IMG/VR virus record: IMGVR_UViG_3300046648_000381
Coordinates: 1-60,023 of that record
Source of the DNA: a virus
Strand: one strand, 5' to 3'
DNA length: 60,023 bases
Positions 16,195 through 56,241 of this stretch are shown here, piece by piece (positions within the stretch are counted from its first letter, which is position 1; every line of letters begins with the position of its first letter). Both the position numbers and the translations under genes were made by a program. Below the pieces are notes generated by a model. It made no database searches. It had not been told where the DNA came from and worked only from the letters and a program-made list of their open reading frames with translations.

Positions 16195-16964
16195 TGGCCG
16201 GAGACTGGATAAAAATGCGCATTGAACTGCAAACGCATCCGAAAGTTTTCCGCATGGTGTCCGCATTGCAAGCGGACAGATTGCGGATTATCGGCGGACT
16301 GCACATCGCCTGGAGTATCTTCGACACCCACTCAAGCGACGGTGTTCTGGTGGGTTACACCGTGGATGCGATGGATGCTGTAGTGGGCTGGCCGGGCTTT
16401 ACCCAGGCTATGATCGACGTCGAATGGGCGTCCGTTGATATTGGCGGAAGCCTTGTAATGCCTCGCTTTGATGAGCATAACGGGGCAAGTGCAAAGCGCC
16501 GTGCCAACGACTCCGAGCGCAAGCGCAACGAGCGTAAAAGTTCTGTCCGCAATTTGTCCGCAAACGAAGCGGACAAAACTCGGACCAGAGAAGAGAAGAG
16601 AAGAGAAGAGAAGAAAGAGCAAGATCAAAATCAAGGTGCTGGCGCACCGGCGAAGTCTTCCAAATTCGATCCCCTCACTGCCAAGCCTGAAAACGTGTCC
16701 GACAAGGCCTGGGCCGACTGGTGTCAGCACCGCAAGGAAATCCGTAAGCCGCTGACCGCCAAGAGCTGCGAGCAGCAGGCAAAGGCGCTTCTGGGCCATT
16801 CAGCCCCTGATCAGGTTCTCGCCACCTCAATCTCCAATGGCTGGACCGGGATATTCCCGGACAAGCCGAGCAGCAATGTCCACCAGTTCCCTTCGCGCCG
16901 ACAAGGAGTCGAGCCTGACTTCGACAGCACCGCATGGGCTAAAGACCTGATGGTGCCTCAGTGA
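16194..16964 (+). CDS. Replication protein, O/DnaT-like
   Basis: 256 residues. The N-terminus (WIKMRIELQTHPKVFRMVSA) is typical of phage replication initiators with a winged helix. A charged linker (KRREEKKEQDQNQ) leads to a C-terminal region resembling a DnaT-like single-strand binding domain (DKAWADWCQHRKEIRKPLT). It lies directly before the P-like gene. The linker is encoded by a pentanucleotide repeat (16587-16614), described in findings. Confidence 0.75.
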   Translation: MAGDWIKMRIELQTHPKVFRMVSALQADRLRIIGGLHIAWSIFDTHSSDGVLVGYTVDAMDAVVGWPGFTQAMIDVEWASVDIGGSLVMPRFDEHNGASAKRRANDSERKRNERKSSVRNLSANEADKTRTREEKRREEKKEQDQNQGAGAPAKSSKFDPLTAKPENVSDKAWADWCQHRKEIRKPLTAKSCEQQAKALLGHSAPDQVLATSISNGWTGIFPDKPSSNVHQFPSRRQGVEPDFDSTAWAKDLMVPQ

Positions 16965-21348: not shown

Positions 21349-21444
21349 ATTCGAGTTGCGGCTAGGGTAGCTCCCGAAATGCTGGCCCCTAACCGGCCTG
21401 CCGCATCCATTCAGTTAGGGCTTCGTACTTTAGGAGTATGAGAT

Positions 21445-44448: not shown

Positions 44449-46887
44449 ATGGCTGATAATAGTTGGCTGGGCGCGTACACCCGGGTGGATCCTGACCCAG
44501 CGAGCGCGGCAGTCATGCCTGCTCCGGCACCTGCTCCCGCTCCAGCACAATCGCCAGCGGCCGCCGACGATCATTCATGGCTTGGGGCGTATACGCGAGT
44601 TGATGCGCCTTCGGACGCTACCGTGCCCGCACAACCAGCGGCATCAACCAGCCCGCAGCCATATCATTATGAGAAACCACCAGAAGTCGGCACAGGCGAA
44701 GCATTCCTGCGTGGCGCTGGCGATGGACTCACGTTCGGTCTTTCCGACGAACTGGTAGGCGGCGCCAAGGCGGCACTGCAGCCAGTCTTCGGCACTGGCG
44801 ACAGTAGCGAGTCATTCGGCGATCGCTACGACAAGAACGTCGATGAACAACGCGGCCTACTGAAGGCAGCGCAGGATCAGCACCCTGTTGCGACAATTGC
44901 GGGCGGCCTGGTCGGCGGTATTGCGCCAGCCGTGCTCACCGGCGGCACCACGGCCGGGGCGAGTCTCGCAGCCAACGTCGGTCGCGGCGCGCTTTATGGT
45001 GCGGGATATGGAGCGGCCTATGGCTTTGGTTCTGCCGAGGGCGATCCGATTGAGCGTCTGCCTGAGGCGGCCAAGGGCGCAGCGATTGGTGGCGTCCTGG
45101 GTGGTGCGCTCCCGGCAGTGATCGGCGGTGCCGGGGCGCTCACCCGCAGCGCGGCGAACAAGACCGAGGCCGAGCTAACGACTCAGCAGGCAGCCATCCA
45201 GACCGCCCGAAATGACCAGGCCGCCGCGAATGCTGCTGGCGGCACTGCCGACGTGGCATCCGAGCAGGCTGGCGCGGTCAGGGCGGCAGCCGATGCTGCC
45301 CAGGCCACTCCGCGCACGCAAGCGCAGAAAGTCGCCGATCTGGCAGAAGAAGTGGCGCCCAACCAAGAAATCCTTGGTGCTGCTGACCGGCTAGGGCTGA
45401 AAGAGACGCTGATCCCATCTCAGTATTCACGCAGCCAGTCCTACCGCGAGATTGAGCAGGCATTGGCTTCGGTGCCAGGCAGCGTGCTGAACGCCCAACA
45501 GAAAGAATCCTATGCGGCTCTGGCACAGAAAGCCGACGATCTCATCGTGCAATACGGCGGGTCTCTGGACAAAAGCGCGTTCTCCGACAAGTTCAGAACC
45601 CAGAGCCAAAGCACTATTCAGGGGCTGAACAAGCAGGCTGAAGACCTATATTCGAATGTGTCGAAGGCAATCCCGGCCCAGACCCAGGCGCCGGCTGATT
45701 CGACGATCAGCTACATCCGGGGGCGCTCGGCAGACTTCGGCGGGGCTCCGCTGCTGTCGGCCGACGAGCGAAAGGCCCTCAATATCCTCTCACCAAAGGT
45801 CGAGACTGTTCCGAACCCACTGATTCCCGGCACAGTCCAGACAATCACCACGCACCCGACCTACGCAGCGCTGGACTCGGTTCGTAAGTCCGTCGGCGAC
45901 GGGTACAAAGGGCGCGGGCCGTTCGCTAACTCAAGCTCTCGCACCCTGGATGCCCTATACGCCAATCTCAGCAAGGACCAGCAGGCGGTTGCGGACGCCG
46001 CCGGTGTCGGGAACATCTTTACCGCGGCAAAATCGGTCGTCGCCCAGCGCAAGGGCCTGGAAGACGGATTGATCCAGGCGATCGGCAAGGACATGTCTGG
46101 ATCCATCAGCTCTACCTTCGGTTCGGCTGTGGAAAAACTGGGTAGCGGAAACTTCAAGGATTTCGACAAGCTGGTTACGCTGATTCCGGCCAATCTGCGC
46201 CAGGAAGCCGTGCTGACCGCCCTGAACAATGCTTTTACGAAGCGGAGCGGGGCGCAGCAGCAACTCAGCGCGCCAGGCTTTGTGGACTGGTACGACAGCC
46301 TCAGTCGAAACGGCGCAGCGAAGAATCGACTGACCCAATACCTGCCCGCCGACGCGGCAAAGACGCTGGACGACATTGCTACGGTAGCGCGCGGCATGCG
46401 CGAGGCCTCGAAGGAGCGGATCACCACGGGGCGCCTCAACTCGATAAATCTGCTCGAGCAATACGCCGACGAGGGTGGCCTGTTATCCAGGGTCTGGGAT
46501 GTCAGCAAGAAGGCCGGGGCAGCCGAGGGCGTAACCAGCACTCTTGGATTCCCTGGCGCCGGGACCATCGGGGTGCTATCTACTGCCTTCTCGAAAGAGA
46601 AGACGCCTATAAAGGAAGCGGCAGAGAAGCTTATCGCAAGCCCTAAATTCCGTGACGCCATCTACACAGCAACTAGCACCGATGGCGCTCAGATCGGCCG
46701 GATGAAAGCGCGGGAGGCGCAGCTCATGCGCACCCTGGCCTACCGGAAGTGGTTCGCTGCCTTGGGCGAAGATGCGCAGAACCAAATCCGCACGGTCGGC
46801 CCAATCGCCTATATCACGACAGATCAGACGCCGCAGCCAGCAAAGCCGAAGCCTGTCGAGCTGCCGCCTACCACTGTCACGCCATAA
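44449..46887 (+). CDS. Large DNA-ejection (transfer) protein
   Basis: 812 residues. The motif SWLGAYTRVD occurs twice near the N-terminus (about 5-14 and 44-53), separated by a Pro/Ala linker. A glycine-rich hydrophobic region (about 145-230) could insert in membranes, followed by long helices. This resembles P22 gp16-like transfer proteins. Confidence 0.7.
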   Translation: MADNSWLGAYTRVDPDPASAAVMPAPAPAPAPAQSPAAADDHSWLGAYTRVDAPSDATVPAQPAASTSPQPYHYEKPPEVGTGEAFLRGAGDGLTFGLSDELVGGAKAALQPVFGTGDSSESFGDRYDKNVDEQRGLLKAAQDQHPVATIAGGLVGGIAPAVLTGGTTAGASLAANVGRGALYGAGYGAAYGFGSAEGDPIERLPEAAKGAAIGGVLGGALPAVIGGAGALTRSAANKTEAELTTQQAAIQTARNDQAAANAAGGTADVASEQAGAVRAAADAAQATPRTQAQKVADLAEEVAPNQEILGAADRLGLKETLIPSQYSRSQSYREIEQALASVPGSVLNAQQKESYAALAQKADDLIVQYGGSLDKSAFSDKFRTQSQSTIQGLNKQAEDLYSNVSKAIPAQTQAPADSTISYIRGRSADFGGAPLLSADERKALNILSPKVETVPNPLIPGTVQTITTHPTYAALDSVRKSVGDGYKGRGPFANSSSRTLDALYANLSKDQQAVADAAGVGNIFTAAKSVVAQRKGLEDGLIQAIGKDMSGSISSTFGSAVEKLGSGNFKDFDKLVTLIPANLRQEAVLTALNNAFTKRSGAQQQLSAPGFVDWYDSLSRNGAAKNRLTQYLPADAAKTLDDIATVARGMREASKERITTGRLNSINLLEQYADEGGLLSRVWDVSKKAGAAEGVTSTLGFPGAGTIGVLSTAFSKEKTPIKEAAEKLIASPKFRDAIYTATSTDGAQIGRMKAREAQLMRTLAYRKWFAALGEDAQNQIRTVGPIAYITTDQTPQPAKPKPVELPPTTVTP

Positions 46888-46925
46888 CCACTATGATGGC
46901 GTCTTGCTCCCCGGATCAGGACGCC

Positions 46926-47144
46926 ATGCGCGATATCAACTCGAAACCGTCGTACAGAATTGGATTGCGCCGTCTATGGCTGGTGATTTCTGTAATCTGG
47001 ATCTTGGGCGCTGGCGCTGTCAACATTCAGAACACCAGTTGGATTCATGACTGCTTCTGGTACGTCCTTATGCCCGTGGTTTTTCTATACGCCCTGATGG
47101 CTGGTATCAACTGGGTGATCGAAGGGTTTCGCTCAGATAGATAG
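46926..47144 (+). CDS. Small two-helix membrane protein
   Basis: 72 residues from the ATG at 46926 (AGGA upstream). Hydrophobic helices LWLVISVIWILGAGAV and FWYVLMPVVFLYALMAGI. Could be a superinfection-exclusion or lysis accessory protein; function unknown. Confidence 0.65.
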   Translation: MRDINSKPSYRIGLRRLWLVISVIWILGAGAVNIQNTSWIHDCFWYVLMPVVFLYALMAGINWVIEGFRSDR

Positions 47145-47151
47145 CTATCGC

Positions 47152-47176
47152 TTGCATACCTGATGCAGCCACATAA
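47152..47176 (+). promoter_or_regulatory. Late promoter-like element 8
   Basis: TTGC, 6 nt, GATGCAGCCACATAA; 32 nt before the next start. Confidence 0.7.
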
Positions 47177-47207
47177 GCCCGATGCACCACAATCGAGGTG
47201 CACCGCT

Positions 47208-47399
47208 ATGTCAGTAGATAAATCGCTGGAAGATGAGGCATTCATCAACGCAGTTGCTGATCGGGTTATCGCTGAAATTGATCGACGTCGCGAGCTGACA
47301 GCCGCCCAAGCCCCTATAGGCCCGTCTGTTACCGAGCGGTATGAAGCAATCCGCGAAGTAGCGCGACGGTCTTGTCAATCGCCGAATCAGGAACAATAG
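47208..47399 (+). CDS. Small hypothetical protein
   Basis: 63 residues (starts MSVDKSLEDEAFINAVADRV), helical and acidic. GAGGTG upstream of the ATG at 47208 and a late element just before. The 3' end overlaps a convergent gene by 71 nt. Confidence 0.6.
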   Translation: MSVDKSLEDEAFINAVADRVIAEIDRRRELTAAQAPIGPSVTERYEAIREVARRSCQSPNQEQ

Positions 47400-47583
47400 A
47401 GGCTACTAGTTCTGCCTCTAAACGAATAAGCTGGTCAGAAAGCCTGAAGGCTATTTCTGGCTTATCCGGGAATGCTCCTACCAAGGCGTGAAGGACGCTT
47501 CGAATGGCGCTTACCTCAGCCTGGGTATTGAGCAGAAGCGTTACCAGCTCGTCGTATTCCTCGCGTGTCACTTCGGCCATCAT
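47329..47583 (-). CDS. Small helical protein, convergent
   Basis: 84 residues, all-helical (YDELVTLLLNTQAEVSAIRS). Two adjacent ATGs follow AAGGA; the second (47580) has better spacing. Overlaps the rightward gene at its 3' end, so one of the two may be less used. Confidence 0.6.
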   Translation of the reverse strand: MMAEVTREEYDELVTLLLNTQAEVSAIRSVLHALVGAFPDKPEIAFRLSDQLIRLEAELVASIVPDSAIDKTVALLRGLLHTAR

Positions 47584-47674
47584 CTCATCCTTGATTGGAG
47601 TTTCGGCCGGTCAACCTATCCTCATGATGGCGCTTTGACCATATGTTCATTTGTCCACGCTGGACGAGTAGACA

Positions 47675-47695
47675 GGGATTGCCATAGCCATCCAG
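47675..47695 (+). other. Truncated copy of the late element (module boundary)
   Basis: AGGGATTGCCATAGYCATCCAG matches the start of element 7 (42401-42422) with one change, but the CCACATAG box is missing and the sequence continues GCTTTTTTG. It marks the left edge of the 47.7-51.1 kb module. Confidence 0.6.
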
Positions 47696-47723
47696 GCTTT
47701 TTTGCGGGGCTCAAGAAACAGTG

Positions 47724-48386
47724 TTACCTAGTCTTCTTCATGCCTGCAACGATCTCCATGAATGCGCGCGATGCGTGATTAGGGGTTCCTGCGACATCGC
47801 CAAGTTTTTTCATGAGCAGCTCTAGAGCTTCGCTAGTGCTTAACCCGAGCTGCTCGCCAAGCTGGACTAAGGATGCGTAGCTACGAGGCGTAACAGGTAC
47901 AAGGTCTACTCTTTCCGAGTCCTCATAAGCGACCCGAAGAACCATAACGTCATCCTCGTCTTCGGATCCTACAAGGGCTTTTACCGGAACGCCTAGCGCC
48001 CTCGATAAGCTTATTAGATCCTCGGGGCTGGGAGCCGCTTCACCTCGCTCGAGCTGTCTTAGCGCTACCTCTTCGATACCGGCTTCAAGTGAAAGTGTTT
48101 TGATGCTGACGCTTGCGTTTTGCCTGGCATCGAGAAGCCGCGAGGAAAACCCCTCAAACAGGCGCAGGCCTTGACCCGCTGCGGGTTTAGCCCCCTTTAA
48201 ATCCTCTGTAGCCACGCCTAGAGCTTTCGCAAGTTTCAGCATTACCGTCTTTCTAGGCATCGCCAATCCAGACTCGTATCTTGAAATCTGCGAGGAGGAT
48301 ATGCCGACAGCATGGGCCAGTTGTTGCTGAGTAAGGTCCTTTTCGACCCTCAGCGCGATTAGTTTCGTAGCGAATTCTTCAGACAT
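47724..48386 (-). CDS. Double-HTH repressor of the immI-like module
   Basis: 220 residues with two XRE-type HTH domains: EKDLTQQQLAHAVGISSSQI (about 15-34) and VSIKTLSLEAGIEEVALRQL (about 92-111). GGGGA precedes the ATG. It is divergent from the arc-like/bro operon across an operator region, so it should repress that operon, comparable in position to Mnt in P22 immI. Confidence 0.8.
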   Translation of the reverse strand: MSEEFATKLIALRVEKDLTQQQLAHAVGISSSQISRYESGLAMPRKTVMLKLAKALGVATEDLKGAKPAAGQGLRLFEGFSSRLLDARQNASVSIKTLSLEAGIEEVALRQLERGEAAPSPEDLISLSRALGVPVKALVGSEDEDDVMVLRVAYEDSERVDLVPVTPRSYASLVQLGEQLGLSTSEALELLMKKLGDVAGTPNHASRAFMEIVAGMKKTR

Positions 48387-48420
48387 TTTTATCCCCAGAT
48401 ATCACCCTAGGATAATACAA

Positions 48421-48482
48421 ACGCAGAAAACGCAAAACTTGTTTGACGTAACGCATAAAACGCAATAAAGTCAGCAAACGCA
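48421..48482 (+). promoter_or_regulatory. immI-like promoter with ACGCA operators
   Basis: Rightward -35 TTGACG (48443-48448), 17-bp spacer, -10 TAAAGT (48466-48471). ACGCA occurs at 48421, 48430, 48451, 48460 and 48478. The two pairs are near-identical 17-nt blocks exactly 30 bp apart, one upstream of the -35 and one in the spacer. A leftward -10 TATTAT (48412-48417) may serve the repressor gene. Confidence 0.75.
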
Positions 48483-48498
48483 AACAAGGAGACGTGCA

Positions 48499-48663
48499 AT
48501 GTCAACGCAAAAAATCACTACGGCAGTAAGGATGCTCTGCGATATGAGGGCGAAGCTGGAAATCCTGGCAGCAGAGAACGGACGCAGCCTGAGCGGGGAG
48601 ATCGTTTTCCGACTAAGGAAGTCCCTTGAGCAGGATCAAAATCATGAAAAGCAGCAGGCATAA
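48499..48663 (+). CDS. Arc-like ribbon-helix-helix protein (54 aa)
   Basis: Frame starting MSTQKITTAVRMLCDMRAKL with AAGGAGA upstream. The sequence LEILAAENGRSLSGEIVFRL is the Arc/Mnt-type RHH fold. It probably autoregulates the operon and limits antirepressor production, as Arc does in P22. Confidence 0.8.
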   Translation: MSTQKITTAVRMLCDMRAKLEILAAENGRSLSGEIVFRLRKSLEQDQNHEKQQA

Positions 48664-48697
48664 AAAAACCCCAACGCTGGCAGGCGACGGGGTTTCG
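48664..48697. terminator. Terminator-like hairpin between arc-like and bro genes
   Basis: AAACCCC/GGGGTTT 7-bp stem. The T run is better on the minus strand (T7); rightward it may act as an attenuator. Confidence 0.45.
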
Positions 48698-48726
48698 GTA
48701 ACGAGATCAGTCTGGAGAAAGATCAC

Positions 48727-49590
48727 ATGACGAATACTAACACGAATGTTCTGCCTTTCAAATTCGAGGCAAAAGAAGTCCGCGCGATCATCCTCAATGG
48801 TGAGCCGTGGTTTGTGGCGAGCGATGTTTGTGAATCGCTAGAGCTGTTAGGCCGGTCCCGCAACTTTCTGCGCATGCTGGATGATGATGAAAAGGGGGCT
48901 CACAATGTGAGCACCCCTGGCGGCGACCAAGAAGTGCAGATCATCAATGAGTCCGGCCTCTATTCGCTGACCTTTAAAAGTCGCAAGCCAGAAGCTAAGC
49001 GATTCAAGAAGTGGGTTACATCTGAAGTCCTGCCAGCTATTCGCAAGCATGGCCGGTATGAGGATGGACAGGGAAGAATGGCTACGCTGATCGGCCAGAC
49101 CATCGGCACCGACGGCTTTCATATGCTCGGCGCGGTGATCAAGGGCAAAGTTACTAGCCTGCCACTTTCTATACAGCGCCGCGCCACTGCAAAGCTCTGG
49201 TCGCAAACTCATGCAGCGTTCGGCGTGCGTTCGGCGGCTGACATTCCTGCCGACCAACTCGACTCCGCCAGAAACTTCATCGCAGCATACGAAGTGAAGG
49301 AGGGCGAATACATCCAGGGTCCAAGCAAAAAGGAAGGCATTCATCTGGACCGCGTTGAAACCCAGCATCTGTACTTGCTGATGTCTTGTTTTTCAGCCAT
49401 GCACAAATACAAGCGCGACATGCTCCAAGCGGCGCGAGCGCTGGACTCTCGCCCGCTGATGGCATTTTTCGATCAGTTGCAGGGCGGGCACTCCGCATTT
49501 TTCAATCTCGATAAGCGTCGCGAAGAGATCTACGCCCAATACACCAGTTTTGGCATGCGTGGCGGTTACGCCATGGGGAGTGCAGCATGA
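48727..49590 (+). CDS. BRO-N family antirepressor
   Basis: 287 residues. The Bro-N domain is clear: NGEPWFVASDVCESLELLGR, then INESGLYSLTFKSRKPEAKR and KKWVTSEVLPAIRKHGRYED. The C-terminal part is variable, as in phage antirepressors. GGAG upstream. The stop overlaps the next start (ATGA). Confidence 0.88.
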   Translation: MTNTNTNVLPFKFEAKEVRAIILNGEPWFVASDVCESLELLGRSRNFLRMLDDDEKGAHNVSTPGGDQEVQIINESGLYSLTFKSRKPEAKRFKKWVTSEVLPAIRKHGRYEDGQGRMATLIGQTIGTDGFHMLGAVIKGKVTSLPLSIQRRATAKLWSQTHAAFGVRSAADIPADQLDSARNFIAAYEVKEGEYIQGPSKKEGIHLDRVETQHLYLLMSCFSAMHKYKRDMLQAARALDSRPLMAFFDQLQGGHSAFFNLDKRREEIYAQYTSFGMRGGYAMGSAA

Positions 49591-50162
49591 GCATGGAAAT
49601 GTTGAACATCCGCATCACTGGCACCTCGCCGCTCATGATGCACAGTGACCGGCTGGCAAACCCTCTACTGCCAGAGACCAAAGCTCACAAGGAGCTGACC
49701 GGAAAACGCAAAAAAACCGACGACGATCATTTGGCAATTGCTCGATCCGAATTCGTCTCAGGTGCGTATTTCGACGAGAAAACAGGTTTCTTCGTACCGG
49801 GCCAAAACTTCGACGCGACGTTTTGGGCGGGAGCAAAACTCCAAAAGCTTGGCGTCCATTGGAAGCGCGGCGCCATGGTTATGACGGACAAGGCGAAGCT
49901 TGAGTTCGATGGCCCAGACACTCCTGCCAAGCTCTGGGAAGACACTCGCTTCGTTGACTGCCGGGGCGTGAAAGTAGGGCAGGCGAAGATCATGCGCTAT
50001 CGCCCGATCTTCCTCGACTGGGCTGTGACGCTTGAAGTTGTGGTAAACCCTGATGTTCTGGACTTGAAGGAGGCCAAGAAGGCTATCTCAGACGCTGGAA
50101 AGCTGATTGGCGTCTGCGAGTATCGCCCGCGCTTCGGGCGCTTCGAGGTGGCTTATGAGTGA
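49587..50162 (+). CDS. Unknown protein with RAMP-like features, linked to the RNA array
   Basis: 191 residues. The N-terminus (LNIRITGTSPLMMHSDRLAN) resembles the first strand and 'PLLMH' turn of RAMP/Cas7-type proteins. The C-terminus (GKLIGVCEYRPRFGRFEV) resembles the glycine-rich loop before the last strand. Between them lie a Lys-rich segment (KELTGKRKKTDDD) and basic strands. These are visual similarities, not a proven family match. It overlaps both neighbours and lies 458 nt before the pentamer array, making it the best candidate RNA-binding partner. Confidence 0.6.
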   Translation: MSMEMLNIRITGTSPLMMHSDRLANPLLPETKAHKELTGKRKKTDDDHLAIARSEFVSGAYFDEKTGFFVPGQNFDATFWAGAKLQKLGVHWKRGAMVMTDKAKLEFDGPDTPAKLWEDTRFVDCRGVKVGQAKIMRYRPIFLDWAVTLEVVVNPDVLDLKEAKKAISDAGKLIGVCEYRPRFGRFEVAYE

Positions 50163-50619
50163 GGTGGCGCGTTATCCATTGTGGCGTCAGGCCGTGCAAG
50201 ACTTCATAGCCGAGTTCGAGTATGGCGATATCGTTGGGCATGACTGGCTCGAAACGAGATTCGGTATGCCGGGTCTCGCGGAAGACCAGCAGCTCACATC
50301 TGACAAGTTTCGGGAGCGGCAATTCGAATGGTTGGCCAACGTTGAGGCATTCAAAACTGAGCTGCTTCGTGACCACCAGATTTGCCTGCAATCCATCCGT
50401 GGCAAGGGCTACCGGTGGGTGCCGCCGAACGAGCAGACCGATATCGCGGTCGCCGACTTCCAGCGTGGAGCGAAGAAGATTTTCAGCTCAGCAGGACAGA
50501 AGCTGCGCAATCTCAGGCTGAGCGAGCTATCTGATGGTGAGCGCAAGAGCAATATTGATGCCGTCGCAAAGCTTTCAGCTCTCCAGGGTATGGCGGCAAA
50601 AACATTGATCACCGAATAA
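50155..50619 (+). CDS. Unknown wHTH-like protein immediately before the RNA array
   Basis: 154 residues from the ATG at 50155, overlapping the previous gene by 8 nt. The first 110 residues look like a winged helix (YGDIVGHDWLETRFGMPGL ... LQSIRGKGYRWVPP), followed by a helical C-terminus. The stop codon abuts the first base of the array. No family recognised. Confidence 0.6.
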   Translation: MSEVARYPLWRQAVQDFIAEFEYGDIVGHDWLETRFGMPGLAEDQQLTSDKFRERQFEWLANVEAFKTELLRDHQICLQSIRGKGYRWVPPNEQTDIAVADFQRGAKKIFSSAGQKLRNLRLSELSDGERKSNIDAVAKLSALQGMAAKTLITE

Positions 50620-51103
50620 GCATCGCGGCGAGCCATGACCTGATGCGGTCGGGCCTGCTGAGGTGAGGTAGGGCTAGGTTTGATAGGGGCTGCAAGCAGC
50701 GTTCAGCCACTTCTCGCGAGGTGGTTGAGCGGTGTGAAAGCATCACAAAGAAAGGCACGCCGGGCTATGGCTTGGCTTGGCAAGGCGGGGCGAGGCGCGA
50801 CAAGTTATGGGCTGAAAACAGCGTACTGGGTTTTCTTACGAGAACTCAGTGCGGTGCGAAGGCATCAATGGTTGGGCGCGGCTTGCCTAGGTCGGACTTG
50901 GAAAGGTCGGGCACGGCGAGGTAAGGGCTGGTAACAGCGTAATACCGATTGGTGACAGTCGGTATTGCGATGTGAAAACATCATTAGGTCTGGCCTGGCT
51001 CGCTCTGGTACGGCGTGACGTGGCAAGGTCTGGCTTGCTTCGGCATGTTTAGGTATGGGCCGTAAACGGCATTGGATAGGCACCTTCGGGTGCCTTTTCT
51101 TTT
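50620..51103 (+). ncRNA. Tandem structured RNA array with GGYNN pentamers
   Basis: Four units. Pentamer runs of consensus GGYNN: 50627-50686 (12), 50754-50808 (11), 50870-50924 (11), 50987-51056 (14). Each run ends in GG plus a 4-bp hairpin: 50689-50700, 50811-50822, 50927-50938, 51059-51070. Units 2-4 also carry GT, a 26-nt hairpin (11 bp, 4-nt loop: 50703-50728, 50825-50850, 50941-50966), GC, and a 14-nt hairpin (5 bp, loop GAAA or GAAG: 50731-50744, 50853-50866, 50969-50982). A UUCG terminator closes the array. It does not look coding. Likely co-transcribed with the operon from 48466. Confidence 0.85.
51078..51103 (+). terminator. UUCG-loop intrinsic terminator of the RNA array
   Basis: AGGCACC/GGTGCCT 7-bp stem, TTCG loop, then TTTTCTTTT. 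It ends the array transcript 3 nt before late element 9. Confidence 0.92.
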
Positions 51104-51106
51104 GGC

Positions 51107-51131
51107 TTGCGTCGCGGATCCAGCCACATAG
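51107..51131 (+). promoter_or_regulatory. Late promoter-like element 9
   Basis: TTGC, 6 nt, GATCCAGCCACATAG; perfect consensus, right after a terminator and 28 nt before the next start. Confidence 0.75.
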
Positions 51132-51158
51132 CTTATTTGGAAATCGCAGGAGATTTCC

Positions 51159-51764
51159 ATGGGCGCCCCCGTCGTCGACATCAACATCGTCAGAGGCAAG
51201 ACATTCGAGTTCATGTACCGCTATGCGGACAAGGAGCTGGTCTATCTGCCCATTACTGGCATGCCGAACACAGCGCCTGTACGCCTGACTGTCGCCAATC
51301 ATGAAATCCCTGATGGCTGGCCGGTCCGCATCGAGGGTGTTCGCCAGCCTGAAGAGCTGAATAGCGAGGACGACAGCTTCTACTTCGCCGCGACCTTCAG
51401 CCCCAGCGTCATCGAGTTGAACGCCGTCCGGGCCGACTCCTGGCGCACCTACACCACTGGCGGCCTGGTCATCTTCAATCGCCCATTCGACCTGACCGGT
51501 TGCTCTGCTCGGATGCAGATCCGTGACAAGGTGGACGGTAAGATCCTGCTCACCCTGAGTTCGGATTCCTCGACTGATCCAGATGGCGAGATCGATATCG
51601 ACGAGGCCCTGGCTGCGCTGGTCGTCCGTCTGAGCCCGACCGTCACTGCCGCCATTGACTGGACGAAGGGCGTCTACGACCTCGAACTGATCACCCCTGG
51701 CGGCAACGTCTATCCAATCACAGCCATCAGCAAGGTCAGTGTCGGCGCCGAGGTGACTAAATGA
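51159..51764 (+). CDS. Tail/baseplate protein
   Basis: 201 residues, beta-rich (FDLTGCSARMQIRDKVDGKI; VYDLELITPGGNVYPITAIS), a pattern shared by phage proteins at the base of fibres. GGAG upstream. First gene of the fibre operon; ATGA overlap with the next. Confidence 0.65.
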   Translation: MGAPVVDINIVRGKTFEFMYRYADKELVYLPITGMPNTAPVRLTVANHEIPDGWPVRIEGVRQPEELNSEDDSFYFAATFSPSVIELNAVRADSWRTYTTGGLVIFNRPFDLTGCSARMQIRDKVDGKILLTLSSDSSTDPDGEIDIDEALAALVVRLSPTVTAAIDWTKGVYDLELITPGGNVYPITAISKVSVGAEVTK

Positions 51765-52228
51765 ACTCGGCATTCGTGGTGCGGGGTTCTACCGGGTGTT
51801 GTATCCGACAGGATGGCGGCGCCTTCACCATCATGGCGGGCCAGCGCGGCGCCCAAGGCAGGCCCGGCACCGACACGGGCGGCGGCATCCAGACAATCGT
51901 CCGCACCGCTGGCGCAACCATCAGCGCCTTACGCGTCGTCTACGAGTCTCAGGCCAAGGTCTTTGCGGTCGATCCGCAGACCCTTTCTGTGTTCCAGGCG
52001 CTCGGCCTGGCTATCACATCAGCCACCACCGGCACTGACATCAGCATCCAGACGCAGGGCTTCATCGACGACTCATCGTGGTCGTGGACCGAGGGCATCG
52101 TCTGGTGCAGCCCAACTGGCGCGCTCACTCAAACCCCGCCGACCTCTGGCTGGGACTTCATCATTGGCTTCGCCACCAGCGCGACACGCCTTTATATCGA
52201 CCTCAATGAGCCGGTTTTACTGGCGTAG
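51761..52228 (+). CDS. Tail fibre-associated protein
   Basis: 155 residues with a collagen-like GQRGAQGRPG segment near the N-terminus, typical of fibre attachment parts. Beta-rich C-terminus. Confidence 0.65.
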   Translation: MNSAFVVRGSTGCCIRQDGGAFTIMAGQRGAQGRPGTDTGGGIQTIVRTAGATISALRVVYESQAKVFAVDPQTLSVFQALGLAITSATTGTDISIQTQGFIDDSSWSWTEGIVWCSPTGALTQTPPTSGWDFIIGFATSATRLYIDLNEPVLLA

Positions 52229-52237
52229 GAGCATATC

Positions 52238-52753
52238 GTGGTAGACAAAGTTCTTCGCCGGGTAAATGGCCAGAATCAGCAGTACACCCCCATCACCACG
52301 TCGGCAGGCTCTGCTGATGCCGGGAAGATTCCGGCCTTGGGTGCTGACGGCAAGCTGGACCCGACCCTGTACAACGCAGGCAGCGGCCCATCCAGCCGAT
52401 CCATTCCGGCGAGCGAGGCCATTGCGGCCGGGAAGTTGGTCAACATCTTCTCCAATGCCGGTGTGGTGAATGTGCGTTTGGCTGACAACTCGAACGGTCG
52501 CCCGGCTCATGGCTATGTGCTGGCCGCCGTGGCATCTGCCGGTAACGCCTCGGTTTACGACCTCGATGGCGTTAACTCGCAACTGACCGGCCTGACTCTG
52601 GGCGCTACTTACTACCTGGGCACCGCTGGCGGCGTCATCACTCCCGCACTCGACGCGACCACGGCAACCTCCGGCACCATCGACCAGAAGATCGGCGTAG
52701 CCCTGTCGGCGACTGAGCTGGACACCGACGACTACGACTTCGTGGTGCTGTAA
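52238..52753 (+). CDS. Tail fibre protein, GTG start
   Basis: 171 residues from the GTG at 52238 (GGAG upstream). GKIPALGADGKLDPTLYNAG is a recurring fibre motif and the rest is beta-rich and Gly/Ala-rich. It shares one base with the next start. Confidence 0.65.
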   Translation: MVDKVLRRVNGQNQQYTPITTSAGSADAGKIPALGADGKLDPTLYNAGSGPSSRSIPASEAIAAGKLVNIFSNAGVVNVRLADNSNGRPAHGYVLAAVASAGNASVYDLDGVNSQLTGLTLGATYYLGTAGGVITPALDATTATSGTIDQKIGVALSATELDTDDYDFVVL

Positions 52754-53763
52754 TGGCATCGCGCCTGACGCTGGTTCGCAAGGACGGCCAGCCCGTTCAG
52801 ATCCCGGAAGGCGACGCGCTACTGCTGCGCGGGGCTCTGTACGGTCCGAATATTATGTCGGCAGTCAGCGGGGACTATCCAGATCTGGCCGCAGCCAAAA
52901 GCAACAACGTAACCATCACAGGCGCCGTTCAGATAATTGGCTTTGAGCTGGGCGGCACGCAAACACCGTCCGGGACCGAGTGGCGAGTTACGTTCGAGCA
53001 AAGCCTGCGCATTGTGCACAACTACGCGAACGACAGGCACGTCCTTAACCTCGGTCAGGCGGATGTAATAACCCAGCCGGGTGATATTGCAGTGTTCCAA
53101 AAGACGGGAACAGGCAACGAAGCGAAAATGGTTTCGTACACCCGGCTGGATGGGACAGCGTTGACAGGGTCGTCATTCCGTGGCGGCACGATGACGAGCG
53201 CTATCAACGAAGCGCCGATTACTCGTTTGTACGCACAGAACCCGTCAGACCTTGGAGCGACCACATCTAACGTGGTCAATCTGGTGTACTTCAACTCTAC
53301 CGTAACATCGTTCGGAACGTCGCCAATAGGATTTAGACGCACCGTCATAAGGACGGGGTCCGATCAGCCTGACGGCGTAACTGGCGCAGGCGATACCGGC
53401 CCAATAACCCTTGTCCACAGCTCAGCCCTTCGTCTGCCCGGCGCCGCCAACATCGTGATGGTAATCGGCGACAGCGCTGAGTTCGAGAGCCTTGGTTCTG
53501 GCAACTGGTTCTGCACCTACTACAAGAAGGCCGACGGCACTGCTGTCGTATCTTCCGGCTCCGGCGGCGCCAGCACCTACACATGGACCCAAGACACCGC
53601 AACGGCTGTCTGGACCATCCCGCACAACCTGAATCGCCGACCTTCGGTAACCGTTGTCGACACTCTCGATAACGTCATTGTGCCCGACGTTTCCTACGTC
53701 GATTCGAACACCGTTCAAGTAACCCATGGCGCGGCCTACGCAGGCAAGGCGTACTTAAACTGA
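52753..53763 (+). CDS. Tail fibre protein
   Basis: 336 residues. The C-terminal block WTQDTATAVWTIPHNLNRRP plus SVTVVDTLDNVIVPDVSYVD is a small fibre domain common in phage tail fibres. Probably part of the host-recognition apparatus. Confidence 0.7.
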   Translation: MASRLTLVRKDGQPVQIPEGDALLLRGALYGPNIMSAVSGDYPDLAAAKSNNVTITGAVQIIGFELGGTQTPSGTEWRVTFEQSLRIVHNYANDRHVLNLGQADVITQPGDIAVFQKTGTGNEAKMVSYTRLDGTALTGSSFRGGTMTSAINEAPITRLYAQNPSDLGATTSNVVNLVYFNSTVTSFGTSPIGFRRTVIRTGSDQPDGVTGAGDTGPITLVHSSALRLPGAANIVMVIGDSAEFESLGSGNWFCTYYKKADGTAVVSSGSGGASTYTWTQDTATAVWTIPHNLNRRPSVTVVDTLDNVIVPDVSYVDSNTVQVTHGAAYAGKAYLN

Positions 53764-53774
53764 GGTAGACCCGC

Positions 53775-54497
53775 ATGAAAATCACGAACACGCTGGACGG
53801 TAGTGGATTTGCTTTCATCAACTTGAAGGACGCCGTCAACCCGCAAGACGCAGTGACGTATGCCCAGCTCCAGGCAGCCATTCAGGGTTATAGCTGGAAG
53901 CAGCCGGTACGGGCCATGGCAACCGCGAACGTCACACTGTCCGGCCTGCAAACGGTCGATGGCGTGAGCCTCGTTGCCGGTGATCGCGTGCTGCTCCCGG
54001 CCCAGACGGCGGGAGCCCAGAATGGTCCTTACGTCGTAGCTTCCGGCGCATGGACCCGCGCAACTGACATGGATACTGGCGCAGAAGCTCTCGGCGCGGC
54101 CTTCTTTGTCAGTGAGGGTACAACTCGCGGCAACACCGTCTGGCTGCAAACTACCGATGCCCCTATCACCATCGGCACGACCGCTCTGGTGTTCGCTCAG
54201 ATCGGCGGCGGGGCAACGTACACCGCAGGCAATGGCGTAACCATCACCAGCGGCGTTATCGCAGTAGACCCGACTGTCGTAGCCCGTAAAGCCTCGGCCA
54301 CCATCGGCGACGGCACAGCCACAACCATCACCTTCACGCACAACCTGAACACTCAGGACGTGCTGGTCATGGTCCGTCTGGTCAGCTCGAACGAACAGGT
54401 CATCGTCGACAACGTGGCGAACGGCGTGAACACGGTACAGCTGACCTTCGGCACTGCGCCTACGACCGGCCAGTACCGCGTTACCGTGGTGGCGTAA
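53775..54497 (+). CDS. Tail fibre protein
   Basis: 240 residues. MKITNTLDGSGFAFINLKDA and the middle VSLVAGDRVLLPAQTAGAQN with GPYVVASGAWTRATDMDT are typical fibre repeats. The next gene starts on the following base. Confidence 0.72.
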   Translation: MKITNTLDGSGFAFINLKDAVNPQDAVTYAQLQAAIQGYSWKQPVRAMATANVTLSGLQTVDGVSLVAGDRVLLPAQTAGAQNGPYVVASGAWTRATDMDTGAEALGAAFFVSEGTTRGNTVWLQTTDAPITIGTTALVFAQIGGGATYTAGNGVTITSGVIAVDPTVVARKASATIGDGTATTITFTHNLNTQDVLVMVRLVSSNEQVIVDNVANGVNTVQLTFGTAPTTGQYRVTVVA

Positions 54498-54953
54498 ATG
54501 CTCGCCAATATCCGGCAGGACCGGCCTAAGGACCTCGTCACGCAGGACCAGCTGACCGCCCTCGGCCAGATATTCCGCGTCGAGACCATCGCCACAACGA
54601 CGGTTGGCCAGACCGCCTATACGGTGCCGAACGGGTATACCCCCGGCTCGATTCTGGTCCTGCTCAACGGTGTGCTCCAGCAGCCTTCTGACTACACCGC
54701 GACTACCAGCCCTACGGTGACCCTGGCCGTGGGCGCGCTCGCGACAACCGACGTCATGTCCGTGGTCGTGCTCAGCGCTATCCGGGCTCAGGACGACGCG
54801 CTGCTGCAATATACGGTCGCCGGGCTTCCCTCTGCCTCGACGAACGCCTTCAAGCAGCGCTGGTGCACGAATATGGCCGGTGGGGCGGGGATGGTGATAA
54901 GCAATGGCACCAACTGGGTGCGGGTCGCAGACAACACAATAGTGACGGTGTGA
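54498..54953 (+). CDS. Tail fibre protein
   Basis: 151 residues starting MLANIRQDRPKDLVTQDQLT. TAYTVPNGYTPGSILVLLNG followed by LQQPSDYTAT matches a common fibre domain. No catalytic signs. Confidence 0.65.
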   Translation: MLANIRQDRPKDLVTQDQLTALGQIFRVETIATTTVGQTAYTVPNGYTPGSILVLLNGVLQQPSDYTATTSPTVTLAVGALATTDVMSVVVLSAIRAQDDALLQYTVAGLPSASTNAFKQRWCTNMAGGAGMVISNGTNWVRVADNTIVTV

Positions 54954-54954
54954 T

Positions 54955-55665
54955 ATGGCCTATAACGTAAACGACGCAAGGATTGTCGGGCTTAAACTGA
55001 GCGTTGCCGGTGATGGGGTGACGGTTAGCCTTAGCCCCGGCGCGGCCTATATCCCGAATCAGGGCCGGGCTTTGTTGCAGACCGATATGTCAGTGGTGGT
55101 GACCGGCGTTACGAACGCGTGGCGTCATTTCTACCTCGGCAACGATAACGGCGCACTGGCCTTCGAGTATTCCGCCACGGCACCGGCTGACCCCTACCAA
55201 GGCACGGCCCGGACGAAATCGAACGACGCCACCCGGCGCTACCTCGGCTCGCTGTACTTCAATGCCTCGGGCGTGACGCTGGCCTTCCTGCACTCCCAAG
55301 TCGGCGACCGGGCCAACCGCATCAGCTTCACGCCTCCGGGCGGTGCGGCAATCGCTCAGTCTCGCCTGCTCAACATCGCCACCGGCACAACGCCGACACT
55401 CGTCGACGCCTCGGCAGTGGTTCCGATGACGTGCCGTCTCATGTACACGCTGATCAACAACACATCGACCAGCGATGCCTACCTCGGCACTCCCGACGGC
55501 GGAACGCTATCAACCACAAACTACCTCCTGTTCGTCAAAGCGAATCAGGCAGGCCAGTTTGACGTGGAAGTAAACGGCAACCAGTTGCTGAACTACTTCC
55601 TAAACGGAATCATCACCCTCGGCGGCCTGACTATTCAGGTTCGCGGCTACCTCTTTGATCGGTGA
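54955..55665 (+). CDS. Tail fibre/spike component
   Basis: 236 residues, beta-rich (VSLSPGAAYIPNQGRALLQT). It follows the previous gene by 1 nt (TGATATG). Role inferred from position. Confidence 0.62.
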   Translation: MAYNVNDARIVGLKLSVAGDGVTVSLSPGAAYIPNQGRALLQTDMSVVVTGVTNAWRHFYLGNDNGALAFEYSATAPADPYQGTARTKSNDATRRYLGSLYFNASGVTLAFLHSQVGDRANRISFTPPGGAAIAQSRLLNIATGTTPTLVDASAVVPMTCRLMYTLINNTSTSDAYLGTPDGGTLSTTNYLLFVKANQAGQFDVEVNGNQLLNYFLNGIITLGGLTIQVRGYLFDR

Positions 55666-55668
55666 CTT

Positions 55669-56241
55669 ATGAGCAATTCACGTAACTTATCGACTTACGG
55701 GGAATACGCACTCCCCACCGACACAACCAAGACCTACACGTTTACGCCAGGGACGGGGTGGGTTGTGGCTGCTGGGGGCGGCGCTCCTCCTTATATGTCG
55801 GTGCGGGAGGAGCAACCGTCCGGGACCTATCCGGGAGCGCTCGTTGTCGGCCCGCAAAGCAGGGTTTTAAACACTGTGGTAGCCAATACTATCCCCGGCG
55901 CGTCTCTGTCAGGAAACTCAGTAACGTTGCCTGCCGGGACATATCACGTATCCGGCCGAGCCACATCCCTCTACCCTAAGCCAGATAAAGTTTGGCTACA
56001 AACATCGGCAGGCACAAAAATTGTGATTGGCGGTGCGACTTTAACAAACGAAAGCAGCTCTGTCAGGAGTGTGGGTGACCTATTTGTTAATGGCTCATTC
56101 GTACTGTCAGTAGCAACTACATTTTCTTTTATCCACTACGTAACAACAACGGTATCGAGCGTCGCCATGGGAGGATACCCAGGCGTAGTCACTGGAGTAA
56201 TTGAAGTTTATACAACCCTCGAAATATGGAAGGACGCTTAA
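55669..56241 (+). CDS. Fibre tip candidate
   Basis: 190 residues. The last large beta-structured protein before the fibre-assembly gene, with visibly more AT-rich codons after about 55990 than its neighbours. C-terminal strands resemble trimeric fibre heads. Likely receptor contact and a region of exchange between phages. Confidence 0.6.
   Translation: MSNSRNLSTYGEYALPTDTTKTYTFTPGTGWVVAAGGGAPPYMSVREEQPSGTYPGALVVGPQSRVLNTVVANTIPGASLSGNSVTLPAGTYHVSGRATSLYPKPDKVWLQTSAGTKIVIGGATLTNESSSVRSVGDLFVNGSFVLSVATTFSFIHYVTTTVSSVAMGGYPGVVTGVIEVYTTLEIWKDA

Follow-up and report, generated by a model that had tools for sequence, protein, structure and literature searches.

Sequence and predicted fold identify the pentamer array analysed here, together with the two genes upstream of it, as a VIPR (Viral Interference Programmable Repeat) locus composed of vipr, a putative vap and four vrRNAs. 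The identification follows from the match of the Vipr protein to a known Vipr protein (PDB 36pp) and from its Cas7/Csm3-like fold. We give a probability of about 95% to the explanation as a whole, which is four VIPR vrRNAs on a temperate phage with a predicted action on the lysogeny control of competitors. The array lies in a stretch of 60,023 nucleotides, IMG/VR record IMGVR_UViG_3300046648_000381, referred to as the window. A sequence-only reading of the window had taken the array for an undescribed system. It belongs instead to a known kind, reported only months ago in a preprint (bioRxiv 2026.04.26.720920 v2, April-June 2026; PMC13142463). The locus adds two predicted natural targets to the kind described in 2026. 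Both are concrete and testable: the Arc-like repressor of a sibling phage and an immunity operon controlled by C4 RNA.

VIPR comprises the RAMP protein Vipr, the accessory gene vap and the vrRNAs (PMC13142463). Vipr is defined by a single RRM core and a G-loop. Each vrRNA contains 9-16 GGY/NN repeats and a 3' tail, with a pseudoknot in the SUSP1 clade. The NN letters pair with double-stranded DNA, and one base is skipped between dinucleotides. Staggered arrays are also mentioned (PMC13142463).

The record carries an integrase and a RecE-like exonuclease, a terminase, a portal and regulators, and is therefore a temperate phage. Its host is probably Pseudomonas, judging from its relatives. An AGAGA tandem repeat of 7.6 copies is found at 16587-16624 of the window.

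The pentamer array

The array consists of four runs on the plus strand. By direct count they contain 12, 11, 11 and 14 pentamers, 48 in total.

50627-50686, plus strand: vrRNA1 repeat tract, 12 pentamers; NN = GA AT CT GC CG CT GA GA AG TA TT AG
50754-50808, plus strand: vrRNA2 repeat tract, 11 pentamers; NN = AC GG AT TT TT AA GG GA GC AA AT
50870-50924, plus strand: vrRNA3 repeat tract, 11 pentamers; NN = TG GC TT TA CG TT AA CG AC GA AA
50987-51056, plus strand: vrRNA4 repeat tract, 14 pentamers; NN = CT CT TC CT AC GT GT AA CT TT TC AT TA AT

Position 1 is G in all 48 pentamers. Position 2 is G in 33, C in 7, A in 6 and T in 2. Position 3 is a pyrimidine in 47 of the 48 (27 C, 20 T, one A), and the letters at positions 4-5 are mixed. 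The register and base counts of the sequence-only reading were reproduced exactly. All four of its runs are present, but they are not all unbroken, as run 3 contains one GGAAA and is divided into 6+5 under strict GNYNN. The GG and 4-bp hairpin that it had placed after the runs is seen after each of the four, as GG(G) and a hairpin such as GCTG-AAAA-CAGC.

The regularity of the array is far beyond chance. The longest GNYNN run is 14 pentamers, compared to a maximum of 7 when the 511-nt array region was dinucleotide-shuffled 3000 times. The longest run over whole-window shuffles (n=100) is also 7, and elsewhere on the plus strand of the window it is 5. The sequence-only reading had been prepared to give way if shuffles yielded equal runs or if no other genome had the same layout; shuffles fall short, and the layout recurs in other genomes. 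Two open reading frames that span the array (84 and 302 amino acids) were judged mechanical because a 5-nt period does not keep frame, and the earlier view of the array as non-coding RNA stands. Rfam covariance models gave no match to the array at gathering score. The only Rfam match in the window lies elsewhere, an int-alpA RNA (RF02996) at 21355-21420 on the plus strand. When phages were searched for DNA similar to the array, only terminator matches were returned.

A structural RNA was considered as a rival explanation. Runs 1 and 4, and runs 2 and 3, would pair into a long duplex, imperfect in that every fifth position is mismatched, and the NN letters would merely be helix partners. The lowest-energy fold does pair run 1 with run 4 in the 5-nt register, with a z of -9.1 against dinucleotide shuffles. 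However, the energy did not change when the scaffold was kept and the NN letters alone were shuffled (-240.0 vs -236.7 +/- 5.2, z -0.65). The run pairing is therefore a consequence of the G/Y scaffold together with the long spacer hairpins, and can be rejected as an explanation of the variable letters. The number of runs varies between relatives, which also argues against run-run pairing. We consider a structural role of this kind highly improbable.

The vipr and putative vap genes

Two genes precede the array.

49587-50162, plus strand: vipr, RAMP (Cas7-like) protein, 191 aa, phrog_4652
50155-50619, plus strand: putative vap, 154-aa accessory protein, phrog_5926; overlaps the stop codon of vipr

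The Vipr protein matches PDB 36pp, 'SUSP1 Vipr protein', with a phmmer E of 2e-44. Its AlphaFold model has a pLDDT of 93.9, and its closest fold matches in the PDB are type VII Cas7 and Csm3 (E 2.7e-5). It is thus homologous to a known Vipr by sequence and by fold. A C-terminal G-loop-like GVCEYRPRFGRF is conserved. The similarity to SUSP1 suggests a type II VIPR.

The putative vap adjoins vipr in all relatives examined. From this gene order and the two-gene layout, as in PMC13142463, we infer that the product of 50155-50619 is vap1. Its AlphaFold model has a pLDDT of 73.7, and the fold search gave only weak winged-helix-like matches (E at least 0.12), none of them significant. Both products are listed as of unknown function in PHROGs, and neither has a significant match in Pfam or any in NCBIfam or PADLOC.

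The identity of the neighboring protein bears on a second explanation of the period. TRAP binds 11 (G/U)AG triplets spaced by 2-3 nt, and its sites place G-containing triplets in a tandem 5-nt register. By this general likeness, the 5-nt period and the 11-14 repeats of the window could reflect a ring of 11-12 RNA-binding subunits that wraps each run, with the NN letters as spacers. The ring was rejected since the neighboring protein is a RAMP, by the match to 36pp and the Cas7/Csm3-like fold, and does not have the TRAP fold. Run length ranges from ~8 to >20 in relatives, which also counts against a ring. In addition, the NN letters match gapped targets and are kept between related guides, unlike spacers. 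They appear to carry target information here, and a TRAP-like ring is barely conceivable.

The vrRNA tails

Each repeat tract of the VIPR is followed by a tail.

50687-50745, plus strand: vrRNA1 tail; GCUG hairpin, long hairpin and GGUG-CAUC hairpin, from an alignment of 19 tails
50809-50867, plus strand: vrRNA2 tail, from the alignment of 19 tails
50925-50983, plus strand: vrRNA3 tail, from the alignment of 19 tails
51057-51105, plus strand: vrRNA4 tail; GCCG-UAAA-CGGC hairpin and intrinsic terminator

The 19 aligned tails predict a 16-pair hairpin. Compensatory changes on both sides are found in 13 of the 16 predicted pairs, consistent with the structured and conserved 3' tail that follows the repeats in VIPR. 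The outer pairs use bases that are also able to form two flanking small hairpins. The intrinsic terminator after run 4 has a stem at 51078-51095, followed by a T run.

The guide code

We decoded 99 unique natural guides from this and related loci. They were scanned against 0.6 Mb of collected loci with the arrays masked, and a score of at least 17 was counted as a strong match. The scan gave 11 strong matches when one base was skipped and none at skips of 0, 2 or 3. There were none after dinucleotide shuffling. Ten of the 11 are located in an open frame and in codon phase, with the skipped base at the wobble position. The 11 are not all independent, as several related guides share the target in gene J. 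By this comparison, the published 1-nt-skip code of VIPR is reproduced with natural guides. This is an independent confirmation of the non-contiguous code from sequence alone, at different loci. Of the four guides in the window, guides 1 and 3 alone have predicted targets.

The code agrees with much of the sequence-only reading, which had proposed a protein-contacted scaffold, variable dinucleotides that carry information, and gapped complementarity of the variable letters to phage targets. The GGY is then the scaffold held by the protein. Its suggestion that position 2 may also be informative found no support: it agrees with the skipped base of the target in 44 cases, where permutation gives 38.3 +/- 3.6.

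The following genes are hit by guides.

L018: tape measure-like tail protein (labelled by inspection)
L064: Arc-like repressor, with the 35-bp target of guide 1 at 1500-1535
L037 (phage Medea1): tail-tip protein L and host-specificity protein J
L044: vipr gene of another VIPR

One site in gene J of Medea1 (L037 8703-8735) is matched by guides of five loci, L016, L017, L029, L034 and L036. A guide of L028 (5511) matches the Pusillimonas vipr gene at L044 4082-4117, with ATKAHKELTGKR codons, a case of VIPR against VIPR.

Targets of the four guides

The match of guide 1 covers 22 of 24 bases and is located at 48312-48346 (minus strand) of a sibling phage, IMGVR_UViG_3300046558_000406 (G008), which has structural genes in common with the phage of the window. 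The two mismatches are counted against the match. Reversed-pattern controls gave no match. The target gene encodes an Arc-like protein, and the matched codons read EIIARLEESYFN. An 18-base guide 1 pattern has one match in all of IMG/VR, the same site. Because chance matches of the order of one are expected for this pattern in the viral collection, the weight of the match lies in its location. G008 is 91% identical to the window over window positions 51097-55774 and 72% over 45062-47147, whereas the cassette between them differs. The target sits inside the differing cassette of G008. At this site, a guide of another phage (L007) has a local score better than that of guide 1. Guide 1 thus appears to aim at the Arc-like repressor gene of a sibling phage.

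The cassette of the window contains HTH, Arc, BRO, vipr, vap and vrRNA genes, and that of G008 contains Arc-like, antirepressor-like and KilA-N-like genes. The two cassettes lie between the same flanks, at window 47148-51096 and L004 2087-4938.

An Arc-like gene related to the target class of guide 1 is also found in the window's own cassette (48499-48663). This raises the possibility that the RNAs derive from VIPR and have another role, such as regulating the phage's own genes and not those of competitors. However, the best matches of the guides in their own genome are at background (16/24, 14/22, 15/22 and 19/28 for guides 1-4), compared to 22/24 for guide 1 in the sibling phage. We regard such a role as very unlikely.

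Guide 3 has two matches with no more than two mismatches (20 of 22 bases) in 249 Pseudomonas genomes, where a simple calculation gives a chance expectation of ~0.4. Both sites belong to homologues of a single small gene and lie on its opposite strand, in codon phase. In two Pseudomonas genomes, the gene adjoins a C4 antisense RNA and its targets. Eight viral contigs are matched by 16 bases of guide 3, five of them through the same small gene. The target of guide 3 is probably this small gene, in the C4-RNA immunity operon of Pseudomonas prophages. C4 RNA controls immunity in P4-like and P1-like phages. A VIPR guide of Pseudomonas juntendi (L055 3690) weakly matches L277 1268-1303, in the gene adjoining the guide 3 target in the C4 operon.

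For guides 2 and 4, the searches gave no convincing target. In exact scans of IMG/VR with 20 guide bases, guides 1 and 4 had no match. The 16-base scans returned 82 stretches for guide 2 and at least 120 for guide 4; the best of them do not extend to the remaining guide, and they are read as chance or common motifs. Guides 1 and 4 had no match with up to three mismatches in 399 Pseudomonas genomes, nor guide 2 in 249 genomes, nor guides 2-4 in 30 related virus records. The NN letters of guide 2 overlap with those of a guide of L015.

Proposed mechanism

The steps on processing, oligomerization and pairing are taken from PMC13142463 and the RAMP fold. The sequences analysed here show the array itself, the homology to Vipr and Cas7-like proteins, the joint occurrence of genes and array, the structure of the tails, and a 1-nt-skip code whose skipped base falls on the codon wobble position. 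The operon vipr-vap-vrRNA1-4 would be transcribed and the transcript cut into vrRNAs of ~100 nt. Vipr subunits would oligomerize along each vrRNA, one GGY per subunit. Holding the GGY would present the following two bases, and the Vipr-vrRNA complex would pair with double-stranded DNA in the pattern NN, skip one, NN, skip one. Pairing is expected to silence the covered gene.

In this mechanism, vrRNA1 is predicted to silence the Arc-like repressor of a sibling phage, in which another regulatory cassette occupies the corresponding genomic position. vrRNA3 is predicted to silence the small gene of the C4-RNA-controlled immunity operon in Pseudomonas prophages. The VIPR locus would then act on the lysogeny control of competitors, either blocking rivals or provoking their induction.

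Comparison with known systems

The closest known systems are the VIPRs of the SUSP1 and Pseudomonas fulva prophage clades (type II, PMC13142463). A homologous RAMP, a two-gene locus and a temperate phage carrier are common to them and the window. As in the preprint, a vrRNA array is located downstream, with 9-16 GGY/NN repeats and a structured 3' tail, and the matches skip one nucleotide, with the skips on wobble bases. The predicted targets are similar as well, lysogeny-control genes of other phages and another vipr gene. The 12, 11, 11 and 14 repeats of the window lie within the published range, with G at position 2 in only 33 of 48. This G is present in 69-71% here, compared to a conserved GGY in the preprint, which counts against the identification. 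Several guides of relatives are directed at tail genes (tape measure, tail-tip L, host-specificity J), a target class that the main text of the preprint does not stress. Compared to the published layouts, all four vrRNAs of the window are downstream, and the last has a terminator.

The predicted fold of Vipr is common to the Cas7/Csm3 backbones of class 1 CRISPR effectors (type III-A and type VII), in which a protein backbone also reads RNA with a fixed period. However, the period is 5 nt here and 6 nt in CRISPR, and the target letters are spread and not contiguous. CRISPR repeats, spacers and further cas genes are absent from the window. At the locus, no array of identical repeats and unique spacers was found; the neighbors are HTH/Arc/BRO regulators, vipr and vap. 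TIGR arrays (TIGR-Tas) are phage-borne tandem guide arrays like that of the window, but their unit length and layout differ, and no Tas protein is seen in the window.

Relatives and evolution of the guides

A search with the putative vap protein found 23 loci in viral contigs. Pentamer tracts are present in all 22 that have sequence beyond the gene. More distant vipr-vap pairs with tracts are found in Pseudomonas phage Medea1, LESphi2 and a Felix O1-like E. coli phage. The tracts are located upstream of the pair in LESphi2 and on both sides of it in the Felix O1-like phage. The Vipr protein found 24 loci in bacterial genomes, of which ~20 have clear tracts and one, a Clostridia bin, has a variant scaffold. 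Across relatives, the repeats per run range from ~8 to >20, and the number of runs varies too.

The guides differ between close relatives. Locus L014 is 92% identical to the window over vipr-vap. The NN letters of its guide 4 are identical to those of the window, with two scaffold changes, and its other guides differ. Between guide 1 and its counterpart in L007, the NN letters differ at 3 of 24 positions and positions 2-3 at 11 of 24; such pairs were chosen for NN similarity. Outside the selection seed, 19 related guide pairs differ at position 4 in 18%, position 5 in 26%, position 2 in 23% and position 3 in 40%. By these counts, related guides conserve their NN bases more than the pyrimidine of the scaffold.

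The 66 guides from closely related loci form a family with in-place turnover, a useful resource for how VIPR guides are acquired. The in-place exchange may reflect a dedicated route of gain, such as recombination between the conserved tails. This would give heritable and updatable targeting, with the swappable regulatory cassettes of siblings and the C4 immunity operons among the main prey. We offer this proposal tentatively and consider it rather doubtful.

Several bins have unusual tracts. In a Dokdonella bin (L063 2261-2836), many short and nearly overlapping GGYNN tracts are found without the usual tails; these are perhaps the staggered arrays of PMC13142463. The Clostridia bin (L060 4590-5008) encodes a Vipr of 37% identity and has an odd scaffold built from pentamers of the form G-N-Y or T-G-Y; several of its tracts are followed by GCATTTT. 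In a Nitrococcus bin (L053 3548-4153), tracts contain up to 26 near-perfect GGCNN pentamers and have a common ACACGGTAGCGGGCAGGGC tail.
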